IMG/VR virus record: IMGVR_UViG_3300032265_004047 | Coordinates: 1-30,059 of that record | Origin: a virus | DNA length: 30,059 nt | Direction: 5' to 3' (one strand) | In this document: positions 463-30,058 of the stretch, piece by piece | Numbering within the stretch: position 1 is the first letter of the stretch | Layout of the letters: every line of letters starts with the position of its first letter | Notes under the pieces: model-generated | Told to the model about the DNA's origin: nothing | Database searches by the model: none | The model's input: the letters and a program-made list of their open reading frames with translations, nothing else | Translations under genes and position numbers: made by a program

Positions 463-1152
463 TTAATATAGAAGTAATTCGAGAAATGAATTAAGACTCG
501 TGGGAGGAGCTGTAACCATTGCAATTGCGGGGTGTTTTGGAGATGGTTTCCTAGTAGTAAACAGCCCTGATTCGCTAATGTAGAGATTGGCTCTAACTGG
601 ATATACCTGGTTTGTTTCTATGCGATCTGTTTGGTAAAACCCTCTAGAATACCAGACAGTAACTCTTCCGCTACCTAATGTAGAGTCGTCACCAGGAATG
701 TTAGATACATAGTATGTATAATTTACTACCGTGCGGATCGCATCCGGCACTCCTCCGCCCGTCAAATCAAAGTTTAGAGGCGTTCCCTTAATAAAGGTAA
801 TAACTCCGTTGGTCGGATTAAGCAATACATCTACCGTGCTAAGAAAGCTACTAGGAGTGACGTTAGGGTACTTTAGCTCCGCCTTGATATCCATTGGAGT
901 CACCGGACCCGATGGAGTCATATCTGGGTTGGATACTGGGACAATAATAATTTCATTCCAGGAGACGGCGCTGAATGCCCTGGTCTTGATGTCATCGATA
1001 ATTCCAATTGGAGCGATTCCTGAGCTAACGGTTGCCATGACTTGATTGCCGATAACGGTCAGTTCTGCCGCCATGCCTGGCTCAAATTCGGCAGAAGGGT
1101 CGCAAATGAAAGAAGCAGGAAGAGCGTTGGAGGTGTGTACTAATCGTAACAT
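463..1152 (-). CDS. putative virion protein, function unknown
   Basis: This is a 229-residue protein not recognised with certainty. It is predicted beta-rich, with many short alternating hydrophobic stretches, a proline-rich middle (residues about 75-100) and no membrane segment or signal peptide. The N-terminal part, with FEPGMAAELTVIGNQVMATV and GIAPIGIIDD, resembles small capsid-surface or decoration-type domains, but this is a weak impression. Its ATG overlaps the stop of the upstream endonuclease by one base (TAATG). A purine-rich AAGGG about 10 bases upstream lies inside the end of that endonuclease gene, so the endonuclease insertion seems to have kept or supplied the ribosome binding site. 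Its place after the protease-scaffold genes supports a head role. A tail or neck protein is an alternative. Confidence 0.6.
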   Translation of the reverse strand: MLRLVHTSNALPASFICDPSAEFEPGMAAELTVIGNQVMATVSSGIAPIGIIDDIKTRAFSAVSWNEIIIVPVSNPDMTPSGPVTPMDIKAELKYPNVTPSSFLSTVDVLLNPTNGVITFIKGTPLNFDLTGGGVPDAIRTVVNYTYYVSNIPGDDSTLGSGRVTVWYSRGFYQTDRIETNQVYPVRANLYISESGLFTTRKPSPKHPAIAMVTAPPTSLNSFLELLLY

Positions 1153-2171: not shown

Positions 2172-2191
2172 GAGTAATTCTTAGAAAGCAA

Positions 2192-2219
2192 AAACCCAAC
2201 CTGGGTGAAGGTTGGGTTT
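2192..2219 (-). terminator. candidate intrinsic terminator
   Basis: Bases 2192-2201 and 2210-2219 are perfect 10-base inverted repeats (AAACCCAACC / GGTTGGGTTT) around an 8-base loop. Read on the minus strand, the stem is followed by TTTTTGCTTTC. It lies 5 bases after the stop of the 2224 ORF and 21 bases before the ATG of the LAGLIDADG gene, a natural place to end the head-gene transcript. A role as a translational or RNA-stability element is also possible. Confidence 0.65.
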
Positions 2220-2223
2220 GCGC

Positions 2224-2478
2224 TCACGCTTCTTCTTCGAAATCATCTGCGTCGAGACGATTAAAATCTTTTCTAGAAAAAACAGTACCGGTTTCTTTTA
2301 AATTAGAAACTAATTTATTTTTATTATTTTTTAGATGATTAGAGTCGCTCTCTTCAAATAAATCAGGATACTCCTCTTGAAGTATTTTTAATATTTCTCT
2401 AGATTGTTCTTCTAGAGGGCGATCTTGCAAATGACGAACGAATCTATTAATTTCCTGGTCTTCTGAATCAATTAAACT
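2224..2478 (-). CDS. acidic C-terminal ORF, probably expressed by -1 frameshift from the gene at 2472-2978
   Basis: This reading frame has no ATG. The only possible conventional start is a TTG at 2430, with no ribosome binding site. The frame is open from 2478 and directly continues the upstream gene in the -1 frame at a nine-A run (2478-2486). A slip there gives ...KKKSLIDSEDQE and adds 84 residues, for a product of about 251 residues. The segment is charged and helical and ends in DDFEEEA; no known domain was recognised. Alternatives are independent translation from TTG, or a miscounted homopolymer in the assembly (ten A would simply fuse the genes). A terminator-like hairpin follows the stop. 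Confidence 0.6.
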   Translation of the reverse strand, partial: SLIDSEDQEINRFVRHLQDRPLEEQSREILKILQEEYPDLFEESDSNHLKNNKNKLVSNLKETGTVFSRKDFNRLDADDFEEEA

Positions 2479-2490
2479 TTTTTTTTAGAG
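2470..2490 (-). promoter_or_regulatory. candidate -1 slippage site (A9), second copy
   Basis: Bases 2478-2486 read as nine A on the minus strand, in the zero frame AAA AAA AAA GTT TAA. This contains the ribosomal slippery heptamer A_AAA_AAA. It also reaches the run length at which bacterial RNA polymerase is known to slip. A -1 change reads AGT TTA ATT and joins the next ORF. No strong downstream hairpin or upstream Shine-Dalgarno-like stimulator was seen. Confidence 0.5.
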
Positions 2491-2978
2491 GAGGCGTAGG
2501 AACTAAAAGATTCTTCATGTGGTCTTCCTCCCTCAGCTTCAAAAACTTCAACCTCGTTCTCTCCTATAGGTGAAACTCCTAATTTCTGTAACTCTGAATG
2601 AAAGAATTCTTCTAATTCGTTTAATTGAATCTTGTTTAGGTGCTTCATTTGATCAGATAGCATTTTCTTTAAATTTTCAATGCTAACAATCTCGACACCG
2701 TTAACTGTTTCTACCATGTGTTTAGGAATGCCTTCAACTGGAGTATCTAATATTTCCGTTACAGCAGAGTCATCTTCCGCAAGAGATTCGAGTAACTCGG
2801 TGACAACTTCGGCTTGTGCATGCAAACCTGTATCGTCAAGAATTTCGGCGGCAGCGTTTAAATAATCAGCAGCTTTGGCAATTTTATTAAAGCTGTGTTG
2901 ATTTTCAGCCTGATTTGCCACTAGCTGTTTGCTCATTTCATTCATTAATTCTTGTTCAAAGCTGCTGATTTTAAACAT
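2472..2978 (-). CDS. helical head-associated protein with recurrent LD-x2-GL motif
   Basis: This is a 168-residue, acidic, mostly helical protein of unknown function. Residues about 31-70 carry the motif YLNAAAEILDDTGLHAQAEV plus VTELLESLAED. Versions of the same pattern occur in the proteins at 3519-4217, 26425-28215 and 29357-30058. The ATG at 2978 has a good ribosome binding site (AAAGGAAAC). The last codons are AAA AAA AAA GTT TAA. The nine-A run allows a -1 slip into the ORF that ends at 2224, so this may be the short form of a two-product gene. It sits in the head-assembly cluster downstream of the protease-scaffold gene. Confidence 0.75.
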   Translation of the reverse strand: MFKISSFEQELMNEMSKQLVANQAENQHSFNKIAKAADYLNAAAEILDDTGLHAQAEVVTELLESLAEDDSAVTEILDTPVEGIPKHMVETVNGVEIVSIENLKKMLSDQMKHLNKIQLNELEEFFHSELQKLGVSPIGENEVEVFEAEGGRPHEESFSSYASSKKKV

Positions 2979-3000
2979 TATTGTTTCCTTTTATTTATTA

Positions 3001-3525
3001 TTATTTTCCAGAAAATCCTGGGGTTGGTCTTCTTTGACCTTGGGGTGCTTGAGGCGCCTGAGATGTTTGAGGTAGGTTTCCTAAAACGCCATTAAGGAAT
3101 GGCAATGTTTGTCCAGCTATTCCTGCCATTTGCCCTACCATATCCACTGGGCTGATCCTTCCTGAAGGGACTGATTGTGTTTGAGCTGACGGCGCCGTTC
3201 CTGGAATCATTCCGGGAAGAATCCTTGGAAGCAATTGAGGTAATTGACCTAAAATTATTCCAGAGGTAATATCGGGGAGATCAGTAGGGTTTGGTATTGG
3301 TAATTTATCACCGGCAGAGTTAACTTGAGAGGCGAGCATTTTTGAAATATCTTCAAATATTTTTTGTGGATTAATCTGCCCTCCGGAAATTATTGATGTG
3401 ATCATTTTAGATATGGAATCAACTGAGATAGATATATCCGGGAATGACCCATATTTAAATGTGACATTCCCGTTATTATATGCTATTTTCCAAGAGGGCA
3501 ACTCTTGCGCTTTTTTATTTAGACT
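3001..3525 (-). CDS. Gly/Pro/Gln-rich C-terminal ORF, probably expressed by -1 frameshift from the gene at 3519-4217
   Basis: This frame has no ATG near its 5' end; the first possible start is a TTG at 3501 without a ribosome binding site. It is open from 3525 and continues the upstream Cys-rich gene in the -1 frame at a nine-A run, giving ...KKKSLNKKAQELPSWK. The added segment is about 174 residues. It begins with a short beta-like stretch (WKIAYNNGNVTFKYGSFPDI), then a helical part, then a Pro/Gln/Gly-rich tail (SQAPQAPQGQRRPTPGF). No family was recognised. The fused product would be about 405 residues. Separate initiation at TTG, or an assembly homopolymer error, are alternatives. Confidence 0.6.
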   Translation of the reverse strand, partial: SLNKKAQELPSWKIAYNNGNVTFKYGSFPDISISVDSISKMITSIISGGQINPQKIFEDISKMLASQVNSAGDKLPIPNPTDLPDITSGIILGQLPQLLPRILPGMIPGTAPSAQTQSVPSGRISPVDMVGQMAGIAGQTLPFLNGVLGNLPQTSQAPQAPQGQRRPTPGFSGK

Positions 3526-3537
3526 TTTTTTTTACCT
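3517..3537 (-). promoter_or_regulatory. candidate -1 slippage site (A9), first copy
   Basis: Bases 3525-3533 are nine A on the minus strand, in frame as GGT AAA AAA AAA GTC TAA. Slipping by -1 reads AGT CTA AAT and enters the open frame that ends at 3001. The sequence around the slip is nearly the same as at 2478-2486. These two were the only runs of nine A or T found by eye in the window. Confidence 0.5.
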
Positions 3538-4217
3538 TTTTCTTTTTTAGCTTTCTCTGCTTTTTCGCGAAGCATCTTCATTCTTTCTTTCATGGTCATC
3601 TTCTTTTTAGCTTTGGGAGCCGAAGAAGTTGACTTAGAAGTGGAGGAAGTTGATTTAGAAGTAGAGGAAGTTGATTTAGAGCTAGAGTCCTCTTTCTTTA
3701 AATTAACTTTACCTTTTTTAGCTTCGGAAACGAGAGTGGCAATCTTAAGGGTTAACTCAGAAGCCTTGGATAGACCAGCGTAATCGAGAGCGGCAGAGGC
3801 TGTGAGAAGATCCTGCATAGCAGAGTCAACTGCAGTAGCCATCTTGTGCTCTTCGTCCGCCCAAGACATATCATGGTCTTCGTGAGATACATCATTGTCA
3901 TCGGCTTTGTGGCAGGTGCATGGCTTTTTCTTGCATCCAGCGCAAACGCCACGGGCATCATTGGCATCGTCAGCCATCATGCTATCGCCGCACATACACT
4001 TGTCGCCATCTTCGCCGCAGCTAGAGCACATTTTGTGCGATACATTGTTGTCGTCTGCATAACCACAGGAGCATTGATCCATTGATTTCATACAGCTTGA
4101 ACACGATTCGCCTTCATGCCTATAGGCTTTTTTGAAAAGCGAAGCGTGTTCCTTGCTGTTAAGAACTTGGTTCATGCTGCTAGCTACTAAATCTCCGATA
4201 TTATTTTTCATGTTCAT
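3519..4217 (-). CDS. Cys-rich protein with three CxxC/CxC clusters and Lys/Ser tail
   Basis: This protein is up to 232 residues long. The first ATG (4217) lies only 2 bases after GGAGAT, while the second ATG (4211) is 8 bases away, so translation probably starts at 4211 (MKNNIGDL). Residues about 39-102 hold three metal-binding-like clusters: CSSCMKSMDQCSC, CSSCGEDGDKCMC and CAGCKKKPCTC. They are separated by repeats of ADD-x-N-x-VS type. A helical segment follows (DLLTASAALDYAGLSKASEL), which matches the motif in several neighbouring proteins. Then come three 21-base repeats (3625-3687) coding STSSTSK-like units and a very basic end, GKKKV. Zinc binding is inferred from cysteine spacing only. 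The gene ends in the same A9 slip sequence as the next gene. Confidence 0.75.
   Translation of the reverse strand: MNMKNNIGDLVASSMNQVLNSKEHASLFKKAYRHEGESCSSCMKSMDQCSCGYADDNNVSHKMCSSCGEDGDKCMCGDSMMADDANDARGVCAGCKKKPCTCHKADDNDVSHEDHDMSWADEEHKMATAVDSAMQDLLTASAALDYAGLSKASELTLKIATLVSEAKKGKVNLKKEDSSSKSTSSTSKSTSSTSKSTSSAPKAKKKMTMKERMKMLREKAEKAKKEKGKKKV
3625..3687. repeat. three tandem 21-base repeats in a coding region
   Basis: Units 3625-3645, 3646-3666 and 3667-3687 are near-identical, differing at a few bases, and encode Ser/Thr/Lys repeats in the tail of the Cys-rich protein. The unit length is a multiple of three, so changes in copy number keep the frame. Confidence 0.9.
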
Positions 4218-4235: not shown

Positions 4236-6659
4236 TCAAAACATTCTGCGGTTAGATTTTGAGAAAGCGCCAACGAGTTGCGAGTAAAGGTCTTCGTTAG
4301 TAGCTTGTGTATAAACGTCTCCGCCGCCAATGAGACCAACTTGAGGTACATTGACCGAAGCTTGTTTGCTCATGGTGGGCTTATGACGAGCGACAACTCT
4401 CTTGAGAGAGTCAAAGCTCTCGTCATTAAACTTCATGATTTCTTCTACTTGAGCCGAGACCGCTTCACGGTCGTTGAGGCAGAGCCCACGGTCAACCATT
4501 TCATAAGCTAGTTCATAGGCACGAGCAAGTTTGACACGGTAGGTTTCTTTTTCTTCTTCGGCTTTGGCAGCAGCAGCTTCTTTGAGAAGTTCGTTGGCGA
4601 ATTCTTTGCCACCGTCTACTTGACCGTAGTAATCGCGGTAGTATTTGGCGGTTTCGGCATCGAGACCTTCGGCTACGAGAGAATCGAGGTCATTGACATC
4701 AAGCTTGCCTTCGGAAACGAGGCGGTGGATGACTTCAGCTTCTTTGCGAACCTTGGGAGAAGCTGTGGCAACTTCCATCATCGCTTTGTGTTGTTCTTTG
4801 AGATCTTCGACGTGAGCATGGTCACCCTCAACTTTAACATCAAGTTGTGTAGTGAATCCGCCCTTGGGGTGAGCTTCGTCGAGAATGGGAGAAGTTTCCA
4901 TCATATCGGCAGCAAGTTTGGCGCGATAGGCGGCGCGGCCTTCTTTGGTATTAAGAGAGGCAACTACGTTAAGTTGATCTCCAGCCTTTAATTGATCCGC
5001 TACGTTTCTTACATCAGCTGGTTTAGCAGTGACGCTAACGTTATTGGTGTCATCTGCCATCATGTGATGAGAGGAAGATCCCATGCCAGAGGAAGATTCC
5101 ATATCAGAAGCTTCGTCATTATCGGGTTTAGATGACTCTTCTGAAGACATTTCTTCTAATCTTCCCAAAGCTTTTCCAGCAAGACCGGAGATTTCTTCTG
5201 ATTCTCCAGAAATTTGATCGAGAAGATTGCGAAGTTCGTCGGAAGAACTTCCTTCTCCTAGTTCGTCGGAAGAACTTCCTTCTCCTACGTGCATTTCTTG
5301 AGCGAATTTGCGCATTTCAGCTTCTGCTTCGGCACGCTTGACCATCGCTTCGGTGCCACGAGCGTACTTAACGAAAGCGCCCATGAGTTTGTAGGTGTCT
5401 GCAATTGATTTCTTGGCTTCGGAGAAAGCCTCAGAAACTAAACCAGAAACAAACTTAGCGTTGGCAGGATTAACTGAACCGCTGCCGTACATGTTGCCAA
5501 TGATTTCGAGTTCGTCACGGTGATCTTTGAGCTCCGCAATCGCCTCTTTAACAGAAGAGATGAGAGCGCCATTAAGCTCTTTTCTCATGTTGGCGAGAGT
5601 GCGAAGTTCAGCAGAAGCTGTTTTACCAGCAGGAGCGCTAGATTCTTCACCAGTGAGACCTTCAAGAGCTCCCATTTCGGCTTTTTCACCAGTGAGGGCG
5701 CGAAGAGCTTCAACGAGGTCGCTAGAGAGATCGCGAATCTTGGTAGCTAATTCCATCGCAACTTCGGCTGGGTCGCCTTCTTTAGAAGCAACTTCCTCTT
5801 CAGCGCCGGGGGCTTTTTCTTCCATGCCAGGAGCAGCGGCTTCCATGCCAGGGGCGGCAGGGGCAGCAGGAGCGGCAGGGGCGGCAGGAGCTTCGACGGC
5901 AGGAGCGGCTTGACCACCCTTGAAGAGTTGCTTAACTGATTGAACGCCGCTGGTCTTTACAGTCTCGATGAGTTTGCCGCCGAAATCCTTGGTGGCAATC
6001 GAGTTGTACATGAGACCGGCTTTGTTGCCGGAGATTTCGTTGACAGAGGCGGTGAGGACGAGTTTATCGCCCATGAAAACGTTCCAGCGGCTCTCGCCAG
6101 CGTTGAAAGAACCATCATCATTCGCCGCTTTGACGAATTGCGCTTTGAGTGCACCTGCGCGACGAAGCATTTCTTTGCGCTTGAGTTCGTCTTTTTCTTT
6201 AACAGATTCGGGGCTGGGGTGTAAGCCATCAACTTCGCCAACTTCGGGGAAGGGCTTTTGACCAACCATTTGCTTGTCCTGTTGGCGAACTTTCATCGCA
6301 AGAGGATCAGGAGTGTATTTTACTTTGCCCGGAGTAGGCTCGTTACCTTCACCGCCGCCTTGGAAATAGGCATTTTTGCGGTTTTCGAGAGCCTCTTTGG
6401 CAAGAGCGACCGCCGCTTGGCGACGGAGAGAGCGCTCTTCCGCTTCAGCGCGAGCAAGAAGTTTCTTGCGGTCGAGATCGCCAGGGAAAAGTTCATCAGT
6501 GGCACCCATGTCATCGACGAACATTTGCTTGTCACCATCGGTGCGCATTTTTTCATTGAGTGGGTCCGCTGTGTACTTAGGCTTACCAGGGGTTGGTTCA
6601 TTGACGCCACCGGCACCTTGATAATAAGCAGCTTTGTTCATACGAGTATTTCCAGACAT
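4236..6659 (-). CDS. possible nested scaffold product from an internal start
   Basis: The ATG at 6659 (residue 405 of the protease gene, MSGNTRMNKAAYY) is preceded by AGAGGAAAAC, a good Shine-Dalgarno sequence at normal spacing. This would give an 807-residue product in the same frame that lacks the protease domain. The same design is established for phage lambda C/Nu3, where the scaffold is made from within the protease gene. DNA downstream of this start appears richer in G and C than the stretch just upstream, which fits two genes that became fused. Translation from this site is an inference. Confidence 0.55.
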   Translation of the reverse strand: MSGNTRMNKAAYYQGAGGVNEPTPGKPKYTADPLNEKMRTDGDKQMFVDDMGATDELFPGDLDRKKLLARAEAEERSLRRQAAVALAKEALENRKNAYFQGGGEGNEPTPGKVKYTPDPLAMKVRQQDKQMVGQKPFPEVGEVDGLHPSPESVKEKDELKRKEMLRRAGALKAQFVKAANDDGSFNAGESRWNVFMGDKLVLTASVNEISGNKAGLMYNSIATKDFGGKLIETVKTSGVQSVKQLFKGGQAAPAVEAPAAPAAPAAPAAPGMEAAAPGMEEKAPGAEEEVASKEGDPAEVAMELATKIRDLSSDLVEALRALTGEKAEMGALEGLTGEESSAPAGKTASAELRTLANMRKELNGALISSVKEAIAELKDHRDELEIIGNMYGSGSVNPANAKFVSGLVSEAFSEAKKSIADTYKLMGAFVKYARGTEAMVKRAEAEAEMRKFAQEMHVGEGSSSDELGEGSSSDELRNLLDQISGESEEISGLAGKALGRLEEMSSEESSKPDNDEASDMESSSGMGSSSHHMMADDTNNVSVTAKPADVRNVADQLKAGDQLNVVASLNTKEGRAAYRAKLAADMMETSPILDEAHPKGGFTTQLDVKVEGDHAHVEDLKEQHKAMMEVATASPKVRKEAEVIHRLVSEGKLDVNDLDSLVAEGLDAETAKYYRDYYGQVDGGKEFANELLKEAAAAKAEEEKETYRVKLARAYELAYEMVDRGLCLNDREAVSAQVEEIMKFNDESFDSLKRVVARHKPTMSKQASVNVPQVGLIGGGDVYTQATNEDLYSQLVGAFSKSNRRMF

Positions 6660-7871
6660 GTTTTCCTCTTGTTGATTTAATTGTGTTGAAAGTTTGTTAA
6701 AATCTTGTTTTAAATTAGCCAATTTTACTTCAATACTTGCGGTTAAGTTTTTTAGTTCTTCAATTAATAGATCATCGGAAGACGCAAATTTAGGAGACGC
6801 AGGAGCAGCAATCCCTAACCCGGATTCTCCACTAAACGCCATATGACCACCATCTTCCGCATAGTTCTTTTCTTCGCCTAAAGATTGTTCATCAGCCTTT
6901 AAGTGATTGTACTTTTCTTCTAACTCGCTGAGAGCCGAAGTTAAAGCGCTCTTAAATTGGTCAAAAGAACCTTTGTTAGAAACGTTGAAATGAGAGGCAT
7001 CTGCGTTATCTTCATCTGCGCGACTAAGAGACAAAGATCCGCTAAAATTATAATCTGCAGCAATTTTCTTTAATTCGCTTTCTTTTTTTGCGACGTAATC
7101 ACTGAGATTGTTAGCGGCTGCAATGATGTGCTTAATTTTGGCTTTAGGGTCTGCGCCATTAACTACGATTGAAAGCTCAATAGGGGAGAGATCGACATTG
7201 ATTTCTCCGTAGCATGATTTGGCTCGCATGTGTCCGCAGAAATCGGGCTCTGCTTTAGCTACCTTGCCGCAATCGCTGCAAATAGCTTGACCAACAGCTG
7301 TGCCCATGCTGACATTGTTAGAATATCCAGAAGAAACTTTGTGGGCTAGATCTGGGTAATTCTTTTTGTCGAGAGCGCAAAGAGCGATGACTCGCTTGAG
7401 CTTGTGATCATAATAGGTATCAACGATGAAACCTCTAACGTGATCAACGGAACTGGACTTGTGATCAATACAAAGTGGTTTTCCTACCCATTTTTTATGA
7501 GCAGTGAGTAATTCTTGCTCAGGAAAAATATCACGGTTGCTGTTGCGATAGGGAAGAAGTTTAGTGTCATTGCTTTTCCATTTCCAGGAATCGCCTTTCT
7601 TTTCCCAACCAACAGAAACAGGCTCTCCGTTCGCAAGAACTTTTAGAGAGCCGTCATCATTTAACGCTACAGATTCTGCTGCATGCATCATAACTGCACT
7701 AAAATACAAAAAGTCATTTGCCTTGGGGGCAATTCTTTTTAGATTTTTTGTAAATTGAGCGAATTTAGAGAGAATCTTAGAGTTATGAGATGTATTGAAA
7801 TTAGGGTCACCGACAACTGCATCTGTGTCTTCGACATTAATAAAAGTAGCTTCACCTAATTTAACAAACAT
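4236..7871 (-). CDS. prohead protease fused to a long scaffold-like region
   Basis: This protein has 1211 residues. Residues about 50-250 look like a phage prohead serine protease. KPLCIDHKSS gives the probable catalytic His137, and SNNVSMGTAV gives the probable catalytic Ser188. They are followed by a zinc-finger-like insertion (C198, C201, C212, C220) and the strand DLSPIELSIVVNGADP. The rest is a long, helical, charged region. It has two copies of an NEPTPGKxKYT...DPL repeat (near 6550 and 6320), a small compact segment at about 580-645, an Ala/Pro stretch near 5840-5900 and a Ser/Asp/Glu-rich stretch. The ATG at 7871 has AAGGA upstream. An in-frame ATG at residue 405 has its own strong ribosome binding site, so a scaffold-only product is likely. 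The protease should cut the scaffold during capsid maturation. The protease call is good; the scaffold role is inferred from position and composition. Confidence 0.8.
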   Translation of the reverse strand: MFVKLGEATFINVEDTDAVVGDPNFNTSHNSKILSKFAQFTKNLKRIAPKANDFLYFSAVMMHAAESVALNDDGSLKVLANGEPVSVGWEKKGDSWKWKSNDTKLLPYRNSNRDIFPEQELLTAHKKWVGKPLCIDHKSSSVDHVRGFIVDTYYDHKLKRVIALCALDKKNYPDLAHKVSSGYSNNVSMGTAVGQAICSDCGKVAKAEPDFCGHMRAKSCYGEINVDLSPIELSIVVNGADPKAKIKHIIAAANNLSDYVAKKESELKKIAADYNFSGSLSLSRADEDNADASHFNVSNKGSFDQFKSALTSALSELEEKYNHLKADEQSLGEEKNYAEDGGHMAFSGESGLGIAAPASPKFASSDDLLIEELKNLTASIEVKLANLKQDFNKLSTQLNQQEENMSGNTRMNKAAYYQGAGGVNEPTPGKPKYTADPLNEKMRTDGDKQMFVDDMGATDELFPGDLDRKKLLARAEAEERSLRRQAAVALAKEALENRKNAYFQGGGEGNEPTPGKVKYTPDPLAMKVRQQDKQMVGQKPFPEVGEVDGLHPSPESVKEKDELKRKEMLRRAGALKAQFVKAANDDGSFNAGESRWNVFMGDKLVLTASVNEISGNKAGLMYNSIATKDFGGKLIETVKTSGVQSVKQLFKGGQAAPAVEAPAAPAAPAAPAAPGMEAAAPGMEEKAPGAEEEVASKEGDPAEVAMELATKIRDLSSDLVEALRALTGEKAEMGALEGLTGEESSAPAGKTASAELRTLANMRKELNGALISSVKEAIAELKDHRDELEIIGNMYGSGSVNPANAKFVSGLVSEAFSEAKKSIADTYKLMGAFVKYARGTEAMVKRAEAEAEMRKFAQEMHVGEGSSSDELGEGSSSDELRNLLDQISGESEEISGLAGKALGRLEEMSSEESSKPDNDEASDMESSSGMGSSSHHMMADDTNNVSVTAKPADVRNVADQLKAGDQLNVVASLNTKEGRAAYRAKLAADMMETSPILDEAHPKGGFTTQLDVKVEGDHAHVEDLKEQHKAMMEVATASPKVRKEAEVIHRLVSEGKLDVNDLDSLVAEGLDAETAKYYRDYYGQVDGGKEFANELLKEAAAAKAEEEKETYRVKLARAYELAYEMVDRGLCLNDREAVSAQVEEIMKFNDESFDSLKRVVARHKPTMSKQASVNVPQVGLIGGGDVYTQATNEDLYSQLVGAFSKSNRRMF
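5234..5287. repeat. exact 27-base tandem duplication in a coding region
   Basis: Bases 5234-5260 and 5261-5287 are identical. They encode two GEGSSSDEL-type nine-residue units in the scaffold-like region. An exact copy suggests a recent duplication by slippage. Confidence 0.95.
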
Positions 7872-10158: not shown

Positions 10159-10880
10159 TGCAAATATTTTCCAGATTTATTATTAATAATTTTTGATGCG
10201 TGACTTGATGATATGCCAAATAATTCAGCTATTTCTTTCTGACTATATTTTTTAGATTGATATAATTTTTTTATATTAATTATATTTTCTTTAGTTAATT
10301 TATAATTTTTATTATTTTTCACTGACTTTAACTTGTCTTCTTCTTTTGCTTTTTGACCTTTTCTGAGAGAGCTTAATTTTCTTTTTGTTTCTTGAAGCAT
10401 TGAAGGAAGCTTTCTCCCAGAAAGGGCGGCACTGATCTTCTTTCTATGTTCTTCCGAATGATTTCTTTTGATTCCGGTCAAGGATGAGCTTATTCTTTTC
10501 TTTGTATTTTCTGTATGTTTTCTTCCCAGAGATGATTTGGAGATATTTGATCTAATTTTTTCCGATCTAAAATAGTCAGCACCCTCATCTCCTCCTTTGG
10601 TAACATTAGTTAATTGACACCCTATCCATTTGTAATAAGCGATTAAATCTATTTCTGCCTGCAATGCTTCTTCTTTAGAATTGTACGTTTCTAAAATATA
10701 GATTTGTGGAAATAATCCATTTGCCCTAATAGATTTGATCCAATTATTTTTGTAGCTATTCGCTTTTAATTTTGATGGGCGACAATGCTGAGCAATTCTA
10801 TTTTTAGAGTTTTTGGTGAATCCAACATATCTTAGCTCATTGGTTCTAGGATCGATTAGCCCATAAACGCAAAAACTCAC
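10155..10880 (-). CDS. GIY-YIG homing endonuclease with NUMOD3-like repeats
   Basis: This is a 241-residue endonuclease. The N-terminal nuclease has the GIY-like VYGLID, the YIG-like RYVGFT, the catalytic Arg in KNRIAQH, the metal-binding Glu in ALQAEIDL and a TNVTKGG element. Residues about 110-170 contain repeated DNA-minor-groove binding units of NUMOD3 type (GRKHTENTKKRISSSLTG, then HSEEHRKKISAALSGRK). The C-terminus is a helix-turn-helix (YSQKEIAELFGISSSHASKI). It is joined to both neighbours by ATGA overlaps, at 10155-10158 and 10877-10880, so it sits cleanly in the operon. The sequence is AT-rich. The family call is strong; the cut site is unknown. Confidence 0.93.
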   Translation of the reverse strand: MSFCVYGLIDPRTNELRYVGFTKNSKNRIAQHCRPSKLKANSYKNNWIKSIRANGLFPQIYILETYNSKEEALQAEIDLIAYYKWIGCQLTNVTKGGDEGADYFRSEKIRSNISKSSLGRKHTENTKKRISSSLTGIKRNHSEEHRKKISAALSGRKLPSMLQETKRKLSSLRKGQKAKEEDKLKSVKNNKNYKLTKENIINIKKLYQSKKYSQKEIAELFGISSSHASKIINNKSGKYLQ

Positions 10881-11608
10881 AGATATCTCATAATATATTG
10901 CAAAACGGCGCGAATATATTGAGGATCTTGCCCGAACAATGTGTGTTTAATGAAGGTAATGCTTTGTCCCATGGAGGCAGAGGCGGGCATCTTCTTATTA
11001 GAGATTTGATTAACATCTAATTGGTTAATTTTATTTTTTACTTTGTATAGGCTTCCAGACCGACTCTGAGGAGATATTTTGGTTAGAGTGAATTTGATAA
11101 TGTTAGCTAAATATCTCGCTACAGTAGCCGCATCTCCTAAATTTGCAGCCGCGACTTTAACAAATTTTTTACTTATTTTAACTGGATATTTCTTATTGAA
11201 TTCCTTGACTGTTTTGGAGAGACTTCGCTCTTCAATATCTTGTTCTTGATTTAATAAATATTGATCAAAATAGTCTTTATATAATTGTGCAAAATATTTG
11301 CAACCTTCTTCACCCAATTGTTTGTTTATTTTTCTCATAATGGCAGAATAACTAAAGTCTTCAATTTTAGTTAGATCTACCTGATCAGAAGCCTTCTTTT
11401 TTATTTTCTTTAAATATTTAAAATATTCAACTTGCTTTAATCTTTTTTTTGCAGCCTCTCTGGAAGAGTAAGTGCCCATGTTTTTCCCCTTGGAAGAAAA
11501 AACGCGATATTTTCCATCGGGTAATTTTCTTATATAAGAAACCTTATAAAGAGAAGAAATCTCTTCATAGGCTTGGGTGGTTTTATATAAAAAATCCGAT
11601 GATTTCAT
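10877..11608 (-). CDS. unknown virion-cluster protein with basic N-terminal domain
   Basis: This is a 243-residue protein. Residues about 20-70 make a compact basic domain (SYIRKLPDGKYRVFSSKGKN, then MGTYSSREAAKKRLKQVEYF). It looks like a small conserved domain seen in large phage proteins, but no function is known to me. The rest is mainly helical and basic, ending in a hydrophobic helix (FIKHTLFGQDPQYIRAVLQY). No membrane segment or signal peptide was seen. It overlaps the genes on both sides by 4 bases (ATGA), showing tight coupling in the structural operon. A neck or head-completion protein is possible. Confidence 0.6.
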   Translation of the reverse strand: MKSSDFLYKTTQAYEEISSLYKVSYIRKLPDGKYRVFSSKGKNMGTYSSREAAKKRLKQVEYFKYLKKIKKKASDQVDLTKIEDFSYSAIMRKINKQLGEEGCKYFAQLYKDYFDQYLLNQEQDIEERSLSKTVKEFNKKYPVKISKKFVKVAAANLGDAATVARYLANIIKFTLTKISPQSRSGSLYKVKNKINQLDVNQISNKKMPASASMGQSITFIKHTLFGQDPQYIRAVLQYIMRYL

Positions 11609-12012
11609 TTGATTTTTTTAATTTCTTTGCCATTGGTAAAGGCTTCATAAACTGAGAAAACATCGCCGCTTCTTAGGATCATGTCCTGGAGCGTGTGGTG
11701 ATCGTTAACTTCGGTCATACCTCGAATCGCTCTTTCGTTAATTAACAGGATACTTCCGCTCTGAACTTTTTTCGATTTATCAACATGAAGCGCTTCAATA
11801 GCAAGGCACTCTTTAAAAGCGGCGATAACCTTACCGCAAAAGACAGCAGGGTAAGAGCAGGAAGTTTGTTCCATGCGAACTTCTTCATAAGAATCGCCTA
11901 AATAAAGCTCGACATATTTATCTTTAAATAAAGTACAAATAAATTCGGCAAGGGTGCTATCTTTGCCTTTCCATTCTTCTGACAAAGATTCAATTTGATT
12001 TCTATCAACCAT
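11605..12012 (-). CDS. small structural-type protein, function unknown
   Basis: This is a 135-residue protein with mixed alpha/beta character. It starts MVDRNQIESLSEEW and ends with a Lys-rich tail (EIKKIK). The central region (GDSYEEVRMEQTSCSYPAVF, then CGKVIAAFKECLAIEALHVD) and the stretch SGSILLINERAIRGMTEVND look like a compact beta-rich fold. No family was recognised. It overlaps the stop of the transglycosylase gene upstream and the start of the next gene downstream by a few bases. This fits a head-tail connector or small virion part, which is inferred from position only. Confidence 0.6.
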   Translation of the reverse strand: MVDRNQIESLSEEWKGKDSTLAEFICTLFKDKYVELYLGDSYEEVRMEQTSCSYPAVFCGKVIAAFKECLAIEALHVDKSKKVQSGSILLINERAIRGMTEVNDHHTLQDMILRSGDVFSVYEAFTNGKEIKKIK

Positions 12013-13060
12013 TGTTGTTTCCTATTATTTTAAGCATGAATTTTCTGTAATTTTTCTCTGCCGTCTTAATATCTAAATGACTATAAGATGGTGATTTATT
12101 GGCAACTATAGATATATTTAAATCATTAATGTTAGTTTTTTGACTGAATTGATTTAAAATATCAAAAGATATTTTTTGAATGAGAGAGTAGTTCTCTTCT
12201 GCATAAGCCACTTTGCATAGAACTTCGACTTCCCTATCCTCGGCGTAGGTACGGCATTTAGCGGATGCAAGATCTTCGCAGGCACTGGAGAGGATTCGAG
12301 CAAATTCTAAATTATTTTCTAGGTGCGGAGAAGTAATCTTAATTAATAAATTATTTGTTGCAGACGGAGATGCTGTGATAGATTTAACTATGCTCTCCAT
12401 GCTGCTGATTAGCTTATTAACAAAAGATTCTATTAGACCGATTCGTTCTTTCTTGGATTCTTCTTCATCAGAAGAAATAGATGAACCGGTAGCGGATTGA
12501 AGATCTTTTAAAGATTTCTGATACCCACTTTCTTTAGAAAGTTTATTTAAATAGTCTTCTATATCTCCGTAGGTCATAACTCCATCTTCATTAAAATCTA
12601 AACTGGAATTTGAACGATAAACGGAGTCATAAGTTAGTCTAGAATTATTCGGATATTTTTTTTGACTTCCCTTTTCGGCTACAACAGCATTTCTATTCTT
12701 ATTAATTACTTCAGGGTCGTCTACTTTTTTTGGAACTAAATTAGCTATATAAAATTGAGTTGAATTAAGCTTTTTGCCCTTGGTGGCTTCTTGGAAATAT
12801 TTTTCAATGTAGGGGAGCTGTTCTTCTGCATCTAATTTTCTAAATTCTTCAGGAGTTCCGTTAAATATTCCTTTTAACGTACTTGGGATAATTTGAGTTA
12901 AACCAGAGGCATTGCTACTTGGACTTTTTATAGAAGAGTCCAATGTCCTGGCAGATTCTAAATACATAATAAGTAACATATCAGCGGGATTCATACCTAG
13001 CCGAGAACTCATCTCAACTAGTTTTTTATAAAAATTTGAACTTAGTTTTTTAGTTTCCAT
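12005..13060 (-). CDS. virion-type lytic transglycosylase with EF-hand-like loop
   Basis: This is a 351-residue protein. Residues about 20-95 look like a soluble lytic transglycosylase domain: LGMNPADMLLIMYLESA places the probable catalytic Glu at residue 35, and GLTQIIPST (53-61) is the typical second motif. Such enzymes cut peptidoglycan and are often carried in the particle to open the wall at infection. Residues about 153-170 (SLDFNEDGVMTYGDIEDYLN) match an EF-hand or dockerin-type calcium loop, with Asp/Asn at 155, 157 and 159 and Asp at 166. The C-terminal half is helical and unknown. There is no signal peptide, so it is not a simple secreted lysin. The ATG at 13060 lacks a clear ribosome binding site, but an in-frame stop lies just upstream. 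Confidence 0.8.
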   Translation of the reverse strand: METKKLSSNFYKKLVEMSSRLGMNPADMLLIMYLESARTLDSSIKSPSSNASGLTQIIPSTLKGIFNGTPEEFRKLDAEEQLPYIEKYFQEATKGKKLNSTQFYIANLVPKKVDDPEVINKNRNAVVAEKGSQKKYPNNSRLTYDSVYRSNSSLDFNEDGVMTYGDIEDYLNKLSKESGYQKSLKDLQSATGSSISSDEEESKKERIGLIESFVNKLISSMESIVKSITASPSATNNLLIKITSPHLENNLEFARILSSACEDLASAKCRTYAEDREVEVLCKVAYAEENYSLIQKISFDILNQFSQKTNINDLNISIVANKSPSYSHLDIKTAEKNYRKFMLKIIGNNNG

Positions 13061-16107: not shown

Positions 16108-18990
16108 TTATGCCGGAGGAGGGCTGGGGGGCGGACCACCTCCGGGAGGGGCTCCTAAATCTAACGGAGGCATTCCTCCTCCAGGTTCGCCCGGAACTCC
16201 TCCGCCGCCGCCTGCGCCAACCTCTGAGGGCTCCTTCGGCTCTGGGATCTCGTCATCATCATCCAAGGCACGAAGCTCGTTAAGAGTAAGTGTCTCAAGA
16301 GAGACTTTTTCCTTCTTGGCAATAGCTGCTTGGATAGATTCTTTGCGCATGTTGCGATTCTCGTTTTCAGCATCAAGACCAAGAGAGCGATATAGGGTGT
16401 GAAGAGAGGCTCTCTTTTGTTCGCCTTCGCCCTGAGTGAGAGACACTAAGGTATTGACGTAATCAGCAGTGTCGAAGAGAGACATGTGATTCCAGTCAAC
16501 ATCAGGAACGATAAGCTGCTTCTCTCCGTTTTTGTACTCATAGAACCCTTGGATTTTAGAGATGGGGGCGAAGATTTTGCGCTTAAGCCAGGTAGCCATC
16601 ATGTTGCGGAATTGCATGTAGCGCTGACGAAGGACGTCAAGAGCCACTCCACCGTTAGCATATGTAGTATCACTACCGCCATCCATAAGAACAGAAGGAA
16701 CTTGTAATCCAGTATAAATTTCTTTTATTAATTGAGTGATATCTCCAGAGATATCATAAATACCTCCACCAGCACCAACTCTTTCCACCGTAACGCCCTC
16801 ATGAGTAAAGATTTTAAAATCTTTATCATATTGGGCGCTGTTGCCTTGAATAGTTATTTTTCCACCTCTTCTTGTAATAAATAGCCCTGTAGGTACAGTA
16901 AAACACCAAACTTTACCAGAATATTGCTCTACTTTTATACTAGGCACATCTCGCTCGCCCTTGCCGTTTCTAACGAGCGGAAATTGTCCCTTTATTTTGC
17001 CATCAAAATTAGACCAAGAAATATCATAAGCGGTAAGCCTATTCTCTCTATTAGTTATACGAGAGGTCGGCGCGTACCCGCACTTATAAGAGATCTCGTA
17101 CACGTCATCGGATAATTGTTTTGATGTTGTTGTATATCTTGAAATTTTGTTACCGGATTTTCTACTAGGTCTAATGTGACCATCTCCAAGCATCATTGCA
17201 TCTAATAGTGTGTTTAAAAGATTTGCATTTAAATTTCGCATCCAAGAAGGTATTTTTTTATATGCTGAAGTTGTTACATTATTTGTTCCAAATTCTGATT
17301 TAAAATAATTAAATATTTCTTTGTTTGAAATAAATCCGATCCACATGCCATTTGTTCTTATTGACTGATGGCATTTAACTCCAAGATGAGATGCAAATTC
17401 TTCCATGCATTTCTTCATCTTCAAATAATTTTCATGCTTTGCGATTGTGGACTGACAAATGCTAACACAATAATTTCTACTAAAAACATAAGTAGACCCT
17501 TCGCTTAAGAAATATCCCAAGAATTCTAGATAATTATTTATTGGAACTTGCTTTCCACAAACTTCAACAAAGCTTTTTTCTTCCCCAGACCATTTGATAT
17601 TTGATCTGAATCTCTGATAATTGCTTGGATTGATTTCAGATGCCTTTGCCTTATGCCACTCGCCCCATGTATGTGATTTATTTTTAATATTTTTTCTTTT
17701 AGAAACCCACATATCATGGTTTGGGGTAACTTTGATATCCATTTTCTTGCTATCAAAGTGATACATTTCTCCCATATAGTTGCCAACGAAAGACGCCAAG
17801 GGCTGATGGTATTCTAATTGCTCATTGCTCGGATTAAAGCAAGCAATCTTTACTCCATCTTTTGGTTTAGAGGGCAACGCCCCAAACAAAGAAGAGTCGG
17901 CATATTCTATTACTTCATTAAATCTCTTAAAGCCTTGATCGGTAAGGACTTCGGTCTCTTCGTCATAACATTCAAAAGTGCTACGCCACGCTTCCAAATC
18001 GGCGTGCGTAGGCTTATAGTCGGCACTACCAATCTTCACGATCGTCAAAGGATTAATTAAATTAGAAGCTTGAGCGAATTTGCTTTCTCTTAATTGGTCG
18101 AATAAAGATAATTGTCTAAACACCGCTACCGGCAATCCGGTCCCTCTCACCTCATAAGGAGAAATCCTGCGAGCAATGTGCGATACATGGAAATTATCTA
18201 GAGGAATATTATCTCCTCGCTTGACGCAATCGATAATATATTGATTTAATTGTTTTCTTTGTTCTACGTCTCTGGTTTTATTTGAGAAAACAATTCTTCT
18301 TAAGTTTTCATCGGGGCGCAAAGAAATTACCGGCTCATCTGCTGCTACGGTACGATTAACAATGACATAATCGGGATTTTGAATTAACAGACGACTCCAT
18401 TTGCCTTTACTTTTGTCATAATCGGCATAAACAAAAGATTCTCCTAGCAGCCAGAATTCTTGAGCAATTTGAACTGCTATATTCATCAAATCCAATTCTT
18501 CAATCATATCATTAAAGAATTTTTCTACTTCTTTGTTATAGCATTTGATATTTAATTTACTAATTGGGTAGGTGCTGTGAAGCGAGATGGCGTTTTGAAC
18601 AAAAGGATTTAGTGCAAAGAAGCTACGGCACCAAGCATTGATGGTGGCACGGTCTCTGGGGAGAGAAAGATTGCTGTTGAGCCAAAGAGGCGAATATACC
18701 TCTGGCGTTTGCTTGACGGTATCTCCTGATCCAGAGGTGTTAAGAGAGTTGTAGGAAGAAACCATCTGAGCTTGTTTCTTAATCCCAACAGAGGCGGTGA
18801 CCAAGCCATTGGCGGTCATCCCATTATCTCTAACGGTTGGACCTGTTCCATCTTTGAATAATCCTTTTTCTACCTCACCAGCTAGCTTGTCCTTGCGAAA
18901 TTGAGAGACGCTGTTCGCCATCAGGGCGCTAACTTGAGGGGCTTCGGATTTATTTTCTAAATATTTCTCTGACTTAGACTTTTCGCTCAT
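16108..18990 (-). CDS. portal protein interrupted by an intein
   Basis: This is a 960-residue precursor. Removing the intein (residues 341-717) leaves about 583 residues, a normal portal length. The extein has features of phage portal proteins: SLPRDRATINAWCRSFFALN near residue 105, the helical run FVQNAISLHSTYPIS, IAQEFWLLGESFVY and, after the intein, QLIKEIYTGLQVPSVLMDG and GVALDVLRQRYMQFRNMM. The C-terminus is a Gly/Pro-rich tail (GGGGVPGEPGG and PPPSPPPA). Portals form the ring through which DNA enters and leaves the head. The start has a clear ribosome binding site (AGAAGGATTAAATT before ATG). It follows the terminase gene, the usual packaging order. Confidence 0.88.
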   Translation of the reverse strand: MSEKSKSEKYLENKSEAPQVSALMANSVSQFRKDKLAGEVEKGLFKDGTGPTVRDNGMTANGLVTASVGIKKQAQMVSSYNSLNTSGSGDTVKQTPEVYSPLWLNSNLSLPRDRATINAWCRSFFALNPFVQNAISLHSTYPISKLNIKCYNKEVEKFFNDMIEELDLMNIAVQIAQEFWLLGESFVYADYDKSKGKWSRLLIQNPDYVIVNRTVAADEPVISLRPDENLRRIVFSNKTRDVEQRKQLNQYIIDCVKRGDNIPLDNFHVSHIARRISPYEVRGTGLPVAVFRQLSLFDQLRESKFAQASNLINPLTIVKIGSADYKPTHADLEAWRSTFECYDEETEVLTDQGFKRFNEVIEYADSSLFGALPSKPKDGVKIACFNPSNEQLEYHQPLASFVGNYMGEMYHFDSKKMDIKVTPNHDMWVSKRKNIKNKSHTWGEWHKAKASEINPSNYQRFRSNIKWSGEEKSFVEVCGKQVPINNYLEFLGYFLSEGSTYVFSRNYCVSICQSTIAKHENYLKMKKCMEEFASHLGVKCHQSIRTNGMWIGFISNKEIFNYFKSEFGTNNVTTSAYKKIPSWMRNLNANLLNTLLDAMMLGDGHIRPSRKSGNKISRYTTTSKQLSDDVYEISYKCGYAPTSRITNRENRLTAYDISWSNFDGKIKGQFPLVRNGKGERDVPSIKVEQYSGKVWCFTVPTGLFITRRGGKITIQGNSAQYDKDFKIFTHEGVTVERVGAGGGIYDISGDITQLIKEIYTGLQVPSVLMDGGSDTTYANGGVALDVLRQRYMQFRNMMATWLKRKIFAPISKIQGFYEYKNGEKQLIVPDVDWNHMSLFDTADYVNTLVSLTQGEGEQKRASLHTLYRSLGLDAENENRNMRKESIQAAIAKKEKVSLETLTLNELRALDDDDEIPEPKEPSEVGAGGGGGVPGEPGGGMPPLDLGAPPGGGPPPSPPPA
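16840..17970 (-). other. intein with LAGLIDADG endonuclease in the portal protein
   Basis: Residues 341-717 (377 residues) form an intein. It begins with Cys341 in CYDEETEVLTDQGFKRF. Block B is VTPNHDMWV (Thr422 and His425), and it ends GLFITRRGGKITIQGN with Asn717, followed by Ser718 as the +1 nucleophile. The penultimate residue is Gly rather than the usual His, as in many inteins. Two LAGLIDADG motifs (LEFLGYFLSEGS at about 488-499, LLDAMMLGDGHI at about 595-606) show a homing endonuclease domain. Excision joins STFE to SAQYDKDF. The mechanism should be class 1. Confidence 0.93.
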
Positions 18991-19050: not shown

Positions 19051-22000
19051 TTAGAATCTTCTGCTAACGTGACCGCCAACAACTAATGGCTTTTGTGCTC
19101 CGGTATTATTTTGATTGGCAAAAGGATTGTTACTGGTTAGTCCATTGGTAATAACGAACTTGTAAGCAATGTAAGCGTTGAGGAGGGCGGCAAATCCATC
19201 ATTGGGACCTGATTTAACATAGTGAATTGTAGGGTCTCCTCCCCGAGAAATAGAGGGTTTAATTTCATTGTTGCTGCAATGCTGAGTCAACCAGGCAATC
19301 TTTTCATAGTCCCCCAAAGGAAATCTAATTTTCCCGCCTCGCAATTGCTCGATTAATTCTGCATAATAAAAGTTCTTTTGAAAAATAATTTCTTTGGGGA
19401 AAATTTCTTTATTATATTTAATATGCCCATTAACGGTATTGTGAGCCCGAGACACTAAATACCGATCGCCATAAGCGGTATGCAGTTTTTCGGAAAATTC
19501 TTGAGAGAAGCCAATATCCCCAATAGCCAACTTTACGCTGTACTGACGCATCAACTGATCGATAAGTGCCCTTTTAGATTCTTCATCATTTCTTTTAAAT
19601 TTAGTACAAAATTCAATAGACAGTAATTGCGGACCCTTGGTAACTAAAATAACTGCAGTGCTAAAAGATTGACCCTGAGTAGATTTAGTGTTATCTGCTA
19701 ATTGTTCTAAATCAGATTTTAAACCATAATCTATTCCAAGAGTAACTAAAAGATCCTCTTCTACGGCAATAGAGGCTCTCATTTTTCTTTCTACATCGCC
19801 ACAAAGATCTCTAATTTCTTCCGGAGTAATTGGACTAGAGTCTCCTTGATAAAACTCTCCTAATACTTCGTTTCGATAGGAGCGCTCTGTGGCGATCGGA
19901 TGAGTGCCGGGTTTTTCAGATAAGATTTTTTCTTTGGTAAAATCAGGCATGTAAAGCTGATTAATATGAAAGCCTACAATAGAATATTCATCTGGCTTTC
20001 TAGAAGCCACCCATTTACCTCTTTCTGCGGCGGGTCGCTTATCCTGTTCGTGCCCGCAATGAGCGCATTTAACAATAAATCCATATAGCCAAATTTTTTC
20101 CCATTCATCGCTTTCGGGAGTGTAGAGTGGGAAATGTTGTTTGCATTTTTCGCAGCCAAGATAAAAATATTGCTGGGATGATGCTATCCACATTTTATAA
20201 TAATCAGAACCTTTTCTTTTAGGGGTTCCGAAATACACTTGCACGCCATCGCCGACTCTGCCGTATTTAGACGCATTGAGCATTTTAGTAGCGTTGCTAA
20301 TAGCGGCTCCACTGATATCTTGGCAATTATGAGCAACTAATCCGTGTTCCCCTATTACAAAATTATGGTTATGGTCAACCTCTATATCGTATACAATTTC
20401 TTCTTCAGTGGTCTCACTGATATTAAAAATTGGTAAAAATTTATTATTAGATCTAATTAAATCTCCGTTAGAAATATTTTCTAATTTTTTCCAACCTTCT
20501 TGTGTTAAAAATCTGTGATTGCCTGTGCACTTGATTATTTCATTATTACATTGAAATTCGAATAATTTTCTTTTATCTCTTTTCCAAGCATTGGTTATTT
20601 CTTTATATTCAAAAATTTCTTTTTCTTCATTAAAAGTTAATACTTTTGGCAATGTTTCATTATTAGAATACATATCATACAATTTTCCAATTGTAACTTT
20701 ACCATTCTCTGTTTGTATGTTTTGACTGTATGGAAAACATTCATCAAAGAAGATGACGTCCGCAGTATTATGGGTTGGTATAAAAGATCTTGTAATTAAA
20801 AATAAATGAGATGGGCTATCTACAGTGATACATCTCATTGGGATTGAATCTATAGGCTCTATGCTTTTTATAAATCTGTGAGTGATTTTTGTAATGAATT
20901 TATTGTTATTTTTGATATTTTTAATTTTTCTTTTCATTCTAAATACAGGTAATTTTGTTACAAAATTTATACAATAAGCATCTTTATATTGTATCCCGTA
21001 TCTCCATCTTTCTTTTTTACAAATATGAGCTTTAATTCCTAAACTTAAAATTAACTCATAAACTTGATAAGCTAAGTCTTTTCTAACTTGACTAAACTCT
21101 ATTCTTCCATCTTTGGAACAACTGCCATCAGTATCCAGTAGCCCTTGTAATAAAGCGAGTCTTTGTTCCGCCGAAGCGCGCATATATATTTCGGGAATGT
21201 GTTTATAATAAAAATCACCTTTTCCACTATGAGTATTTTTAATTACCCCTAATTTAGTTAAAGCTGTAGTTAAACCAATTACTCTGTAGGAACATGATTT
21301 TGAGGGGGCAGAGCTAAAGCTTCCCATATGATTTATTGACGACGGAACAACCCTATGTTCATAATTTTGTAAAATTTCAGGATCGGCAGACTCTATTCTT
21401 CTATACTTATCACCATCACCAAGCCATAATCCAAATAAATAAGGATCAATTGGTAATTCTTTTTTATCATAATTTAACGGCAAACAATTTGGTATTGAGT
21501 GGTTGTTTTCGTCAGAGGTTGACACTTTTAAAGTTTTAAATATTTCTTTTGTGTTTTTTATTTTTGGTTCCGGCTTTTTGCTAGATTTTCCTTCTAAAAA
21601 TTTTCTATAAATTTTACGATCTCGCTTCGTATACGTTAACCAGAGATGGTCTGCACAAGCTTCCACAATTGTACCATCATCAAATGTTATTTTATATGAT
21701 TCTGGGGATAAATTTATTGGATGCATTTTTGTAACATTACAAATATTTCCAGATTCATCAAATAATTGGTCTCCCTCTTTTAAATCTTTTAATTTAATAA
21801 ATCCAGTAGGAGTGGGCAATTCAGTTTCTAAAGATAATTGCCTACCACGCAACCTGTCTGCGTTTAAGCCGGTAGATTCAATCCAAATATGATTGCCCCC
21901 GGTAAATTGTTTAAAGTGAAGAGAGTTGTTGGTTTCGCTAGTGGTATCTAACAAAGACTGCATAAAAGATTTATGCTTACCTTTTTTCTCCTGAGCATCA

Positions 22001-29356: not shown

Positions 29357-30058
29357 TTAATCGCCATATCCTCCGAGGCGACCCTCACGATTATCAAATA
29401 TCGTATGGAATTCTCTTTGGTCTACTTGAGTTTGTTCGGAAACGTTGCCGCCAGGAACTTTAGATCCGTTAACTAAAGAAAAACCTTCATTATAATTATA
29501 GATTTTTTTAGTCATCTCAGATTGCCAAAGACCATCTCCAACACGAGATAGTAGAGTTCCAGGATAATCTGGATCATAGCGAGTGCTAAGGGAGTGCTCC
29601 ATGATTCGGTACTGTTTGGTCATGCCGCTATTCTCGATGTCTTTAGCGGCACCCTTAATTTCATTGAGAGAGGCTAATTCTTTTGGAGGATTTTGGTATT
29701 TTTGTTGCAAATCTTTAATTCTTTGCTCTTCTGCGGCTTGTTTTTTCTTTAAAAAATCTGAGGGAGCGGCAAGGGTTAAAAGCAATTCATCGATGACCGA
29801 AGCTTGTTTTTTAAGAGCGGGATCACCGGAATAATCAAAAGCAGTGGCGATAGCAGCCAACTCTTCCAATGACTTAGAATTTAGCTTAGACTCTTCGGGA
29901 GGCTCTATTGATTCTACTTTTTTAGCTGCTGTTTTTAATAAGGAAGCGGCGGCAACGCAAGACTCAGAAACAACTTTCAAACATTCATCATCGTATTCCG
30001 ATAATAAAACAGCTTCGTTATCTGGACTCTCTAGCCATTGAGCAATAGAAATTAACAT
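29357..30058 (-). CDS. virion-type protein with recurrent helical motif
   Basis: This is a 233-residue protein if the ATG at 30056-30058 is the start; the window ends one base later, so the true start could lie further upstream. Residues about 1-55 form a helical segment (IAQWLESPDNEAVLLSEYDD). Residues about 60-100 carry LEELAAIATAFDYSGDPALK, then KQASVIDELLLTLAA, the same pattern as in the proteins at 2472, 3519 and 26425. A coiled-coil-like part follows, then a Gly/Tyr-rich end (FDNREGRLGGYGD). No known function was recognised. It is probably a head or assembly protein. Confidence 0.6.
   Translation of the reverse strand: MLISIAQWLESPDNEAVLLSEYDDECLKVVSESCVAAASLLKTAAKKVESIEPPEESKLNSKSLEELAAIATAFDYSGDPALKKQASVIDELLLTLAAPSDFLKKKQAAEEQRIKDLQQKYQNPPKELASLNEIKGAAKDIENSGMTKQYRIMEHSLSTRYDPDYPGTLLSRVGDGLWQSEMTKKIYNYNEGFSLVNGSKVPGGNVSEQTQVDQREFHTIFDNREGRLGGYGD

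Follow-up and report, generated by a model that had tools for sequence, protein, structure and literature searches.

Ribosomes shift frame in the dnaX gene of E. coli on the sequence A_AAA_AAG. Transcriptional slippage has been described on a nine-A run in dnaX of Thermus thermophilus (PMC6260861, PMC5009743) and in the type III secretion genes spa13, mxiE, spa33 and mxiA of Shigella (PMC5009743). Slippage by bacterial RNA polymerase occurs on A or T runs that are nine long or longer, and in A7-A11 reporters insertions outnumbered deletions (PMC6260861), a bias that would favour the -1 frame. A viral polymerase slips on GAAAAAA to give potyvirus P3N-PIPO, and among phages ribosomal frameshifting is known in head genes (gene 10 of T7/T3 and the major head protein gene of Lactobacillus phage A2) and in the lambda tail assembly chaperone genes G/GT (PMC5009743).

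The stretch of DNA analysed here (the window) is a linear IMG/VR fragment of 30,059 nt from an uncultured large phage. Its structural genes lie on the minus strand in the order terminase with inteins, portal, prohead protease, A, B, a homing-endonuclease-like gene and D229. The features on which the analysis is based are:

463..1152, minus strand: D229, a conserved 229-aa protein that served as the query for finding relatives.
2186..2222, minus strand: terminator-like hairpin and T run, AACCCAACC...GGTTGGGTTTTTG, directly after the B tail, identified by eye.
2224..2478, minus strand: 84-residue -1 extension of B that contains the conserved motif of the tail, KLVSNLKETGTVF (LTPEKMVxNLKxxGTxF in relatives).
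2472..2978, minus strand: gene B, zero-frame product of 168 aa (the short form), with an N-terminal module predicted to be helical in relatives.
2478..2486, minus strand: putative slip site B, nine A, in TCT AAA AAA AAA GTT TAA.
3001..3525, minus strand: -1 extension of A, 174 residues, starting SLNKKAQELPSWK and ending 22 nt before the B start codon.
3519..4217, minus strand: gene A, zero-frame product of 232 aa, with a CxxC-rich N-terminal part, an LLTASAALD module and a Lys/Ser-rich end, KGKKKV-stop.
3525..3533, minus strand: putative slip site A, nine A, in GGT AAA AAA AAA GTC TAA.
4236..7871, minus strand: prohead protease with a long C-terminal region, adjoining A and kept in relatives.

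Reading of the frames bore out the preliminary description, which had reported that both genes end in AAA AAA AAA GTY TAA and that the -1 frame stays open beyond the run for 174 (A) or 84 (B) residues, each extension starting with SL. The -1 frame reads KKK-SLNKK... in A and KKK-SLIDS... in B, the +1 frame closes after 1-2 codons in both genes, and an in-phase A_AAA_AAA heptamer is present at both sites. Neither extension has an ATG or a clear ribosome binding site ahead of it, again as first described (the first TTG codons are at 3501 in A and 2430 in B); the starts of genes A and B, by contrast, are ATG codons preceded by sites of the AAGGAG or AAAGG type. The impression, originally gained by eye, that these are the only runs of nine A or T held up in a count of all 30,059 nt, which found only the two plus-strand T9 runs at 2478-2486 and 3525-3533 (nine A as read in the mRNA); there were also six T8 and no A8. 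By base composition, the chance of an open frame is ~3e-6 for 174 codons and ~2e-3 for 84. The codon-usage scores of the extensions in the -1 frame (+0.16 and +0.37 bits/codon) fell among those of the genes in the window, and only this frame was positive, the other forward frames scoring -0.26 to -0.61 bits/codon. A hairpin similar to the one behind the B tail also follows the tail in L003, the closest relative.

The Shigella type III secretion slippage set is the closest precedent in design. There too several genes of one system carry runs of A or T, about 9-10 long, that give extended or truncated products, and the spa13 extension overlaps the start of the next gene, as the stop of the A tail overlaps the B start in two relatives of the window (L029 and L064). 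The Shigella genes, however, are bacterial and their mechanism has been demonstrated, whereas the present genes belong to phages and their predicted slippage alternates with a gene pair. In dnaX an A run likewise leads to two products, but the alternative product is truncated whereas those of A and B would be extended; truncation of the E. coli type resembles what slippage would do in a third gene, C, considered below. In T7/T3 gene 10 and phage A2, as predicted for our locus, a -1 shift lets a single phage gene supply a head-region protein in two lengths, but the proteins are different ones, and here the run is exactly nine A and relatives swap the site for a gene pair. Lambda G/GT is similar in that recoding is conserved close to the 3' end of a small gene for virion assembly, whereas the genes here follow the prohead protease. 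In P3N-PIPO one inserted A also opens a -1 tail, but through the polymerase of an RNA virus and at a shorter run. The proposed recoding is of a known kind; what is notable is the alternation of slip site and gene pair and the recurrent use in one gene region.

A first search, for which D229 and the early relative L002 were the queries, yielded 80 loci on contigs of up to 480 kb, and two later scans enlarged the set. The order protease, A, B, D229 was conserved wherever a contig spanned the region. D229 itself had no match among the named phages of the INPHARED set or in GTDB genome contigs.

A profile of the B tail matched in nearly all loci. At least 52 non-redundant loci carried a pair of B genes (B1 and B2), and there the tail closed B2 without a change of frame. 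Eight divergent lineages had only one B gene (the window, L003, L032, L040, L077, L078 (=L080), L085 and L134 (=L135)), with the tail in the -1 frame and a run of exactly nine A ahead of it; two of them, L085 and L134=L135, served as held-out tests and surfaced in the later scans, as had been predicted beforehand. Wherever a detected tail was out of frame, the locus had just one B gene and its run was exactly A9. The exception to the pattern was L131 (7251-7664), a long-branch lineage in which a lone B gene runs in frame into the tail and A9 is absent. Two B genes and no detected tail were found in L029, L060 and L147, and L042 and L046 were cut off by the contig end. These results answer the question raised at the outset of whether relatives keep the run or fuse the genes: at B, both occur. 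Because the tail is in frame with B2 where there are two B genes and in the -1 frame behind A9 where there is one, slippage seems to stand in for a pair of short and long B genes.

The conserved domain in the slip tails had no ATG upstream of it. Purifying selection acts on the -1 tails, with dN/dS values of 0.15/0.77, 0.34/2.30, 0.18/1.73 and 0.36/0.88 in the pairs with finite dS. On an unrooted tree with long branches (L131, L134), the B slip state corresponded to one change in the first set of loci and two in the larger set; the loci are mutually related and the single-B slip state needs few changes, so the counts are not independent tests. On the evidence of these relatives, the B case is real and old. 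The run at the B junction was nine A in 20 loci (the 8 slip lineages and 12 fused forms), in three codon registers and never eight or ten, so that its length itself seems to be maintained. In one clade, fused B2 genes retain a run of exactly nine A immediately ahead of the in-frame tail, in three codon registers (e.g., L031:8648-8656, L062:8704-8712, L067:2880-2888, L076:8641-8649, and others), where slippage would yield a truncated B2.

In most relatives gene A ends in Lys/Ser codons like AAGAAGTAA, and the B start lies within ~30 nt. The run at the end of A was A9 in the window, L011, L019, L029 and L037, A10 in L043, A7 in L055 and A8 in L064; in all eight the stop fell within one codon of the run and was followed by a -1 tail of ~32-174 residues. 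L011 and L019 had the same A9 GTC TAA as the window at the homologous gene end, and their A tail was fused in frame in the sister locus L012, so that runs (A7-A10, in seven relatives) and a fused form occur at A as well. The A tails vary by lineage, and the slip state required six or seven changes on the unrooted tree. Searches of viral contigs by peptide patterns, of the related loci, of Pfam and of PHROGs returned no homologue of the window A tail. This tail is an orphan, if a coding-like one, so that the support for slippage at A is indirect and the use of the A tail less certain than that of B. Slippage at A is nevertheless moderately backed by the relatives' sites at the same gene end, the long coding-like open reading frame and the group of L011, L019 and L012. 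The A tail of L011 (7280), L019 (4330) and, in fused form, L012 looked EF-hand-like by eye (GDxxITxxDF). In L003 a GC-rich stretch that differs from its surroundings (4360-4530) interrupts the end of gene A, possibly an assembly chimera or an insertion.

Long A runs were surveyed in non-redundant sequence comprising 753 ORFs and 791 kb of coding sequence. Three genes, A, B and C, held 36 of the 39 sense runs of nine or more A, placed at the end of A, at the end of single B, at the pre-tail junction of fused B2 and at about codon 150 of C. In the first seven B-slip loci (93 kb of ORFs), all eight sense A9 runs were slip sites, and none of 40 other KKK tripeptides was written AAAAAAAAA; AAGAAGAAG is a synonymous replacement for the A9 run. 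Compared with synonymous shuffles, A7 was depleted in all three phases (ratios 0.50-0.65), and A_AAA_AAG was depleted in phase (0.63) and not out of phase. Chance occurrence of A9 was ruled out by the concentration of 36/39, the choice of KKK codons and the A7 depletion relative to shuffles.

Gene C lies downstream, outside the window. In 13 loci (L013:6633-6642, L030:10078-10087, L076:15695-15704 and ten further loci) it carried A9 or A10 near codon 150, with a hydrophobic stretch following the run; about eight loci had A7 at the same position. As gene C stays in frame past the run in all but L013, slippage would truncate its product. In L013 a stop directly follows the A10, and 265 codons are open in the -1 frame.

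The preliminary description had proposed that slippage gives short and long forms of both proteins, an expectation that the relatives supported strongly for B (A9 in eight lineages, the tail domain, selection) and moderately for A. With modest confidence, we consider it probable that both sites are programmed for slippage by RNA polymerase and that each gene gives two proteins, a reading built on the anatomy of the sites, the conserved B run and tail, the selection acting on that tail and the alternation of one and two B genes. Transcripts with nine A, the majority, would give the short protein ending in KKKV. At times RNA polymerase, presumably that of the host, would insert one A at the run, and the resulting ten-A transcripts would be read straight into the -1 frame to give a long protein (A plus 174 or B plus 84 residues). 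Long B would then carry the conserved C-terminal tail that relatives fuse to a second B copy. For a phage-encoded RNA polymerase, PF00562 had no match in 13 large relatives, while its controls did match; PF00940 likewise had no match in these 13, and none of its controls matched either. Within a limited check of the literature, we know of no phage gene that has been shown to rely on transcriptional slippage by a host RNA polymerase.

Both of the machines named in the preliminary description, ribosome and RNA polymerase, remain candidates, and we infer that it is RNA polymerase that slips. This is favoured at B because the run is always nine in three registers and there are no recurring stimulators. 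Neither a consistent upstream SD-like element nor a consistent downstream stem was found at the B sites, and the z-scores of local, pseudoknot-free folds at the window sites were 0.31 (A) and 1.27 (B). A homopolymer of about nine or more, its length kept irrespective of frame, was found at B; at A the run ranges from 7 to 10 and is not uniform, and the choice of machine is left more open there. The avoidance of runs of nine or more A outside the three genes also speaks for RNA polymerase, and A7 depletion in all phases is a pattern ascribed to transcriptional slippage or to indel mutation (PMC4066793).

A possible but doubtful alternative is programmed ribosomal -1 frameshifting, in which tandem lysyl-tRNAs would re-pair one base back on A_AAA_AAA and the same products would arise at translation. 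It would account for the heptamer, A_AAA_AAA or A_AAA_AAG, that lies in phase at each slip site (the A7 of L055 and the A8 of L064 among them), for tails that are all -1 and never +1, and for the roughly eight A7 sites in gene C. Candidate SD-like or stem-loop stimulators at A were seen in L037, L043 and L055, the selective depletion of in-phase A_AAA_AAG indicates that ribosomal slippage matters in these hosts too, and -1 ribosomal shifts are known in phage head genes (PMC5009743). However, such a heptamer needs only seven bases, whereas the B run is nine whatever the codon register; AAG is unused at B in the slip lineages, the B sites share no stimulator, and the depletion of A7 is independent of phase. 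RNA-polymerase slippage thus remains the favoured reading at B, although both machines may contribute.

It is very improbable that the sites are not programmed at all, being an assembly indel, a decayed fusion gene or a phase-variable tract that is A10, and fused, in other members of the population. A9 tracts are prone to error and mutation, and tails of this kind are fused in frame in L131 and L012, which indicates that interconversion happens. Yet the run is exactly A9 in eight diverged lineages, never A8 or A10 at B, and tails that have no starts of their own are under purifying selection. Near-identical phages from different metagenomes, assembled independently (L078/L080, L134/L135), all have A9, which makes a true ten-A plain fusion very unlikely; the sharing of exactly A9 by independent contigs ruled out assembly error, and homopolymer phase variation at the DNA level also appears unlikely. 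Least probable of all, and barely credible, is that the tails are separate genes with a non-ATG start or coupling to the upstream stop, for although TTG codons and upstream stops lie near the tail ORFs, there is no ribosome binding site, no ATG precedes the conserved domain, the boundary of the -1 frame coincides exactly with the run in each gene, and relatives fuse the tail in frame to B or A.

More tentatively, but as a serious possibility, we suggest that in this lineage of large phages RNA-polymerase slippage at nine or ten A might provide dosage devices in three neighbouring genes of the virion region (A, B and C), some of whose products would be lengthened and others cut short, and that evolution swapped this device with a B gene pair. 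If so, a phage virion-gene region sets protein ratios by homopolymer slippage, and relatives offer a natural alternation, for the same gene, of a single slip-site copy with a pair of copies. This alternation would permit a direct test of whether slippage-made isoforms precede or replace gene duplication. The long forms would escape annotation pipelines, and the signature of nine or more A would be a simple route to further cases.

As to what the proteins do, the preliminary description had called A and B head proteins. Their position beside the prohead protease agrees with this, but neither has an annotated relative: there was no Pfam match above the cut-off, no significant PHROG match and no homology to capsid proteins. 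AlphaFold models had pLDDT values (67 for B2, 50 for D229) too weak for a fold search, and Rfam gave nothing beyond one sub-threshold chance match. Based on the position of their genes between those of the prohead protease and D229, A and B may be head proteins, and a role in head assembly would be consistent with this placement.

Bacillus phage G (L082) was considered as a distant relative; its annotated joined gene gp22/gp23 is lysin-like and unrelated to A and B. The design of that gene (10879-12548) is nonetheless similar, with A_AAA_AAG TAG and a -1 extension. The window protein at 29357-30058 shares with A (3519-4217) and B (2472-2978) a short module of the type 'A..LD..G...A......L', and short MADD/ADDND motifs, possibly for cleavage or targeting, are common to the C-terminal part of the protease, A and the B tails of relatives. 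On the minus strand at 19051-22386 and 16108-18990, the terminase of the window matched intein splicing and homing endonuclease domains, and an intein-like insert was recognised by eye between the portal segments of the portal gene.
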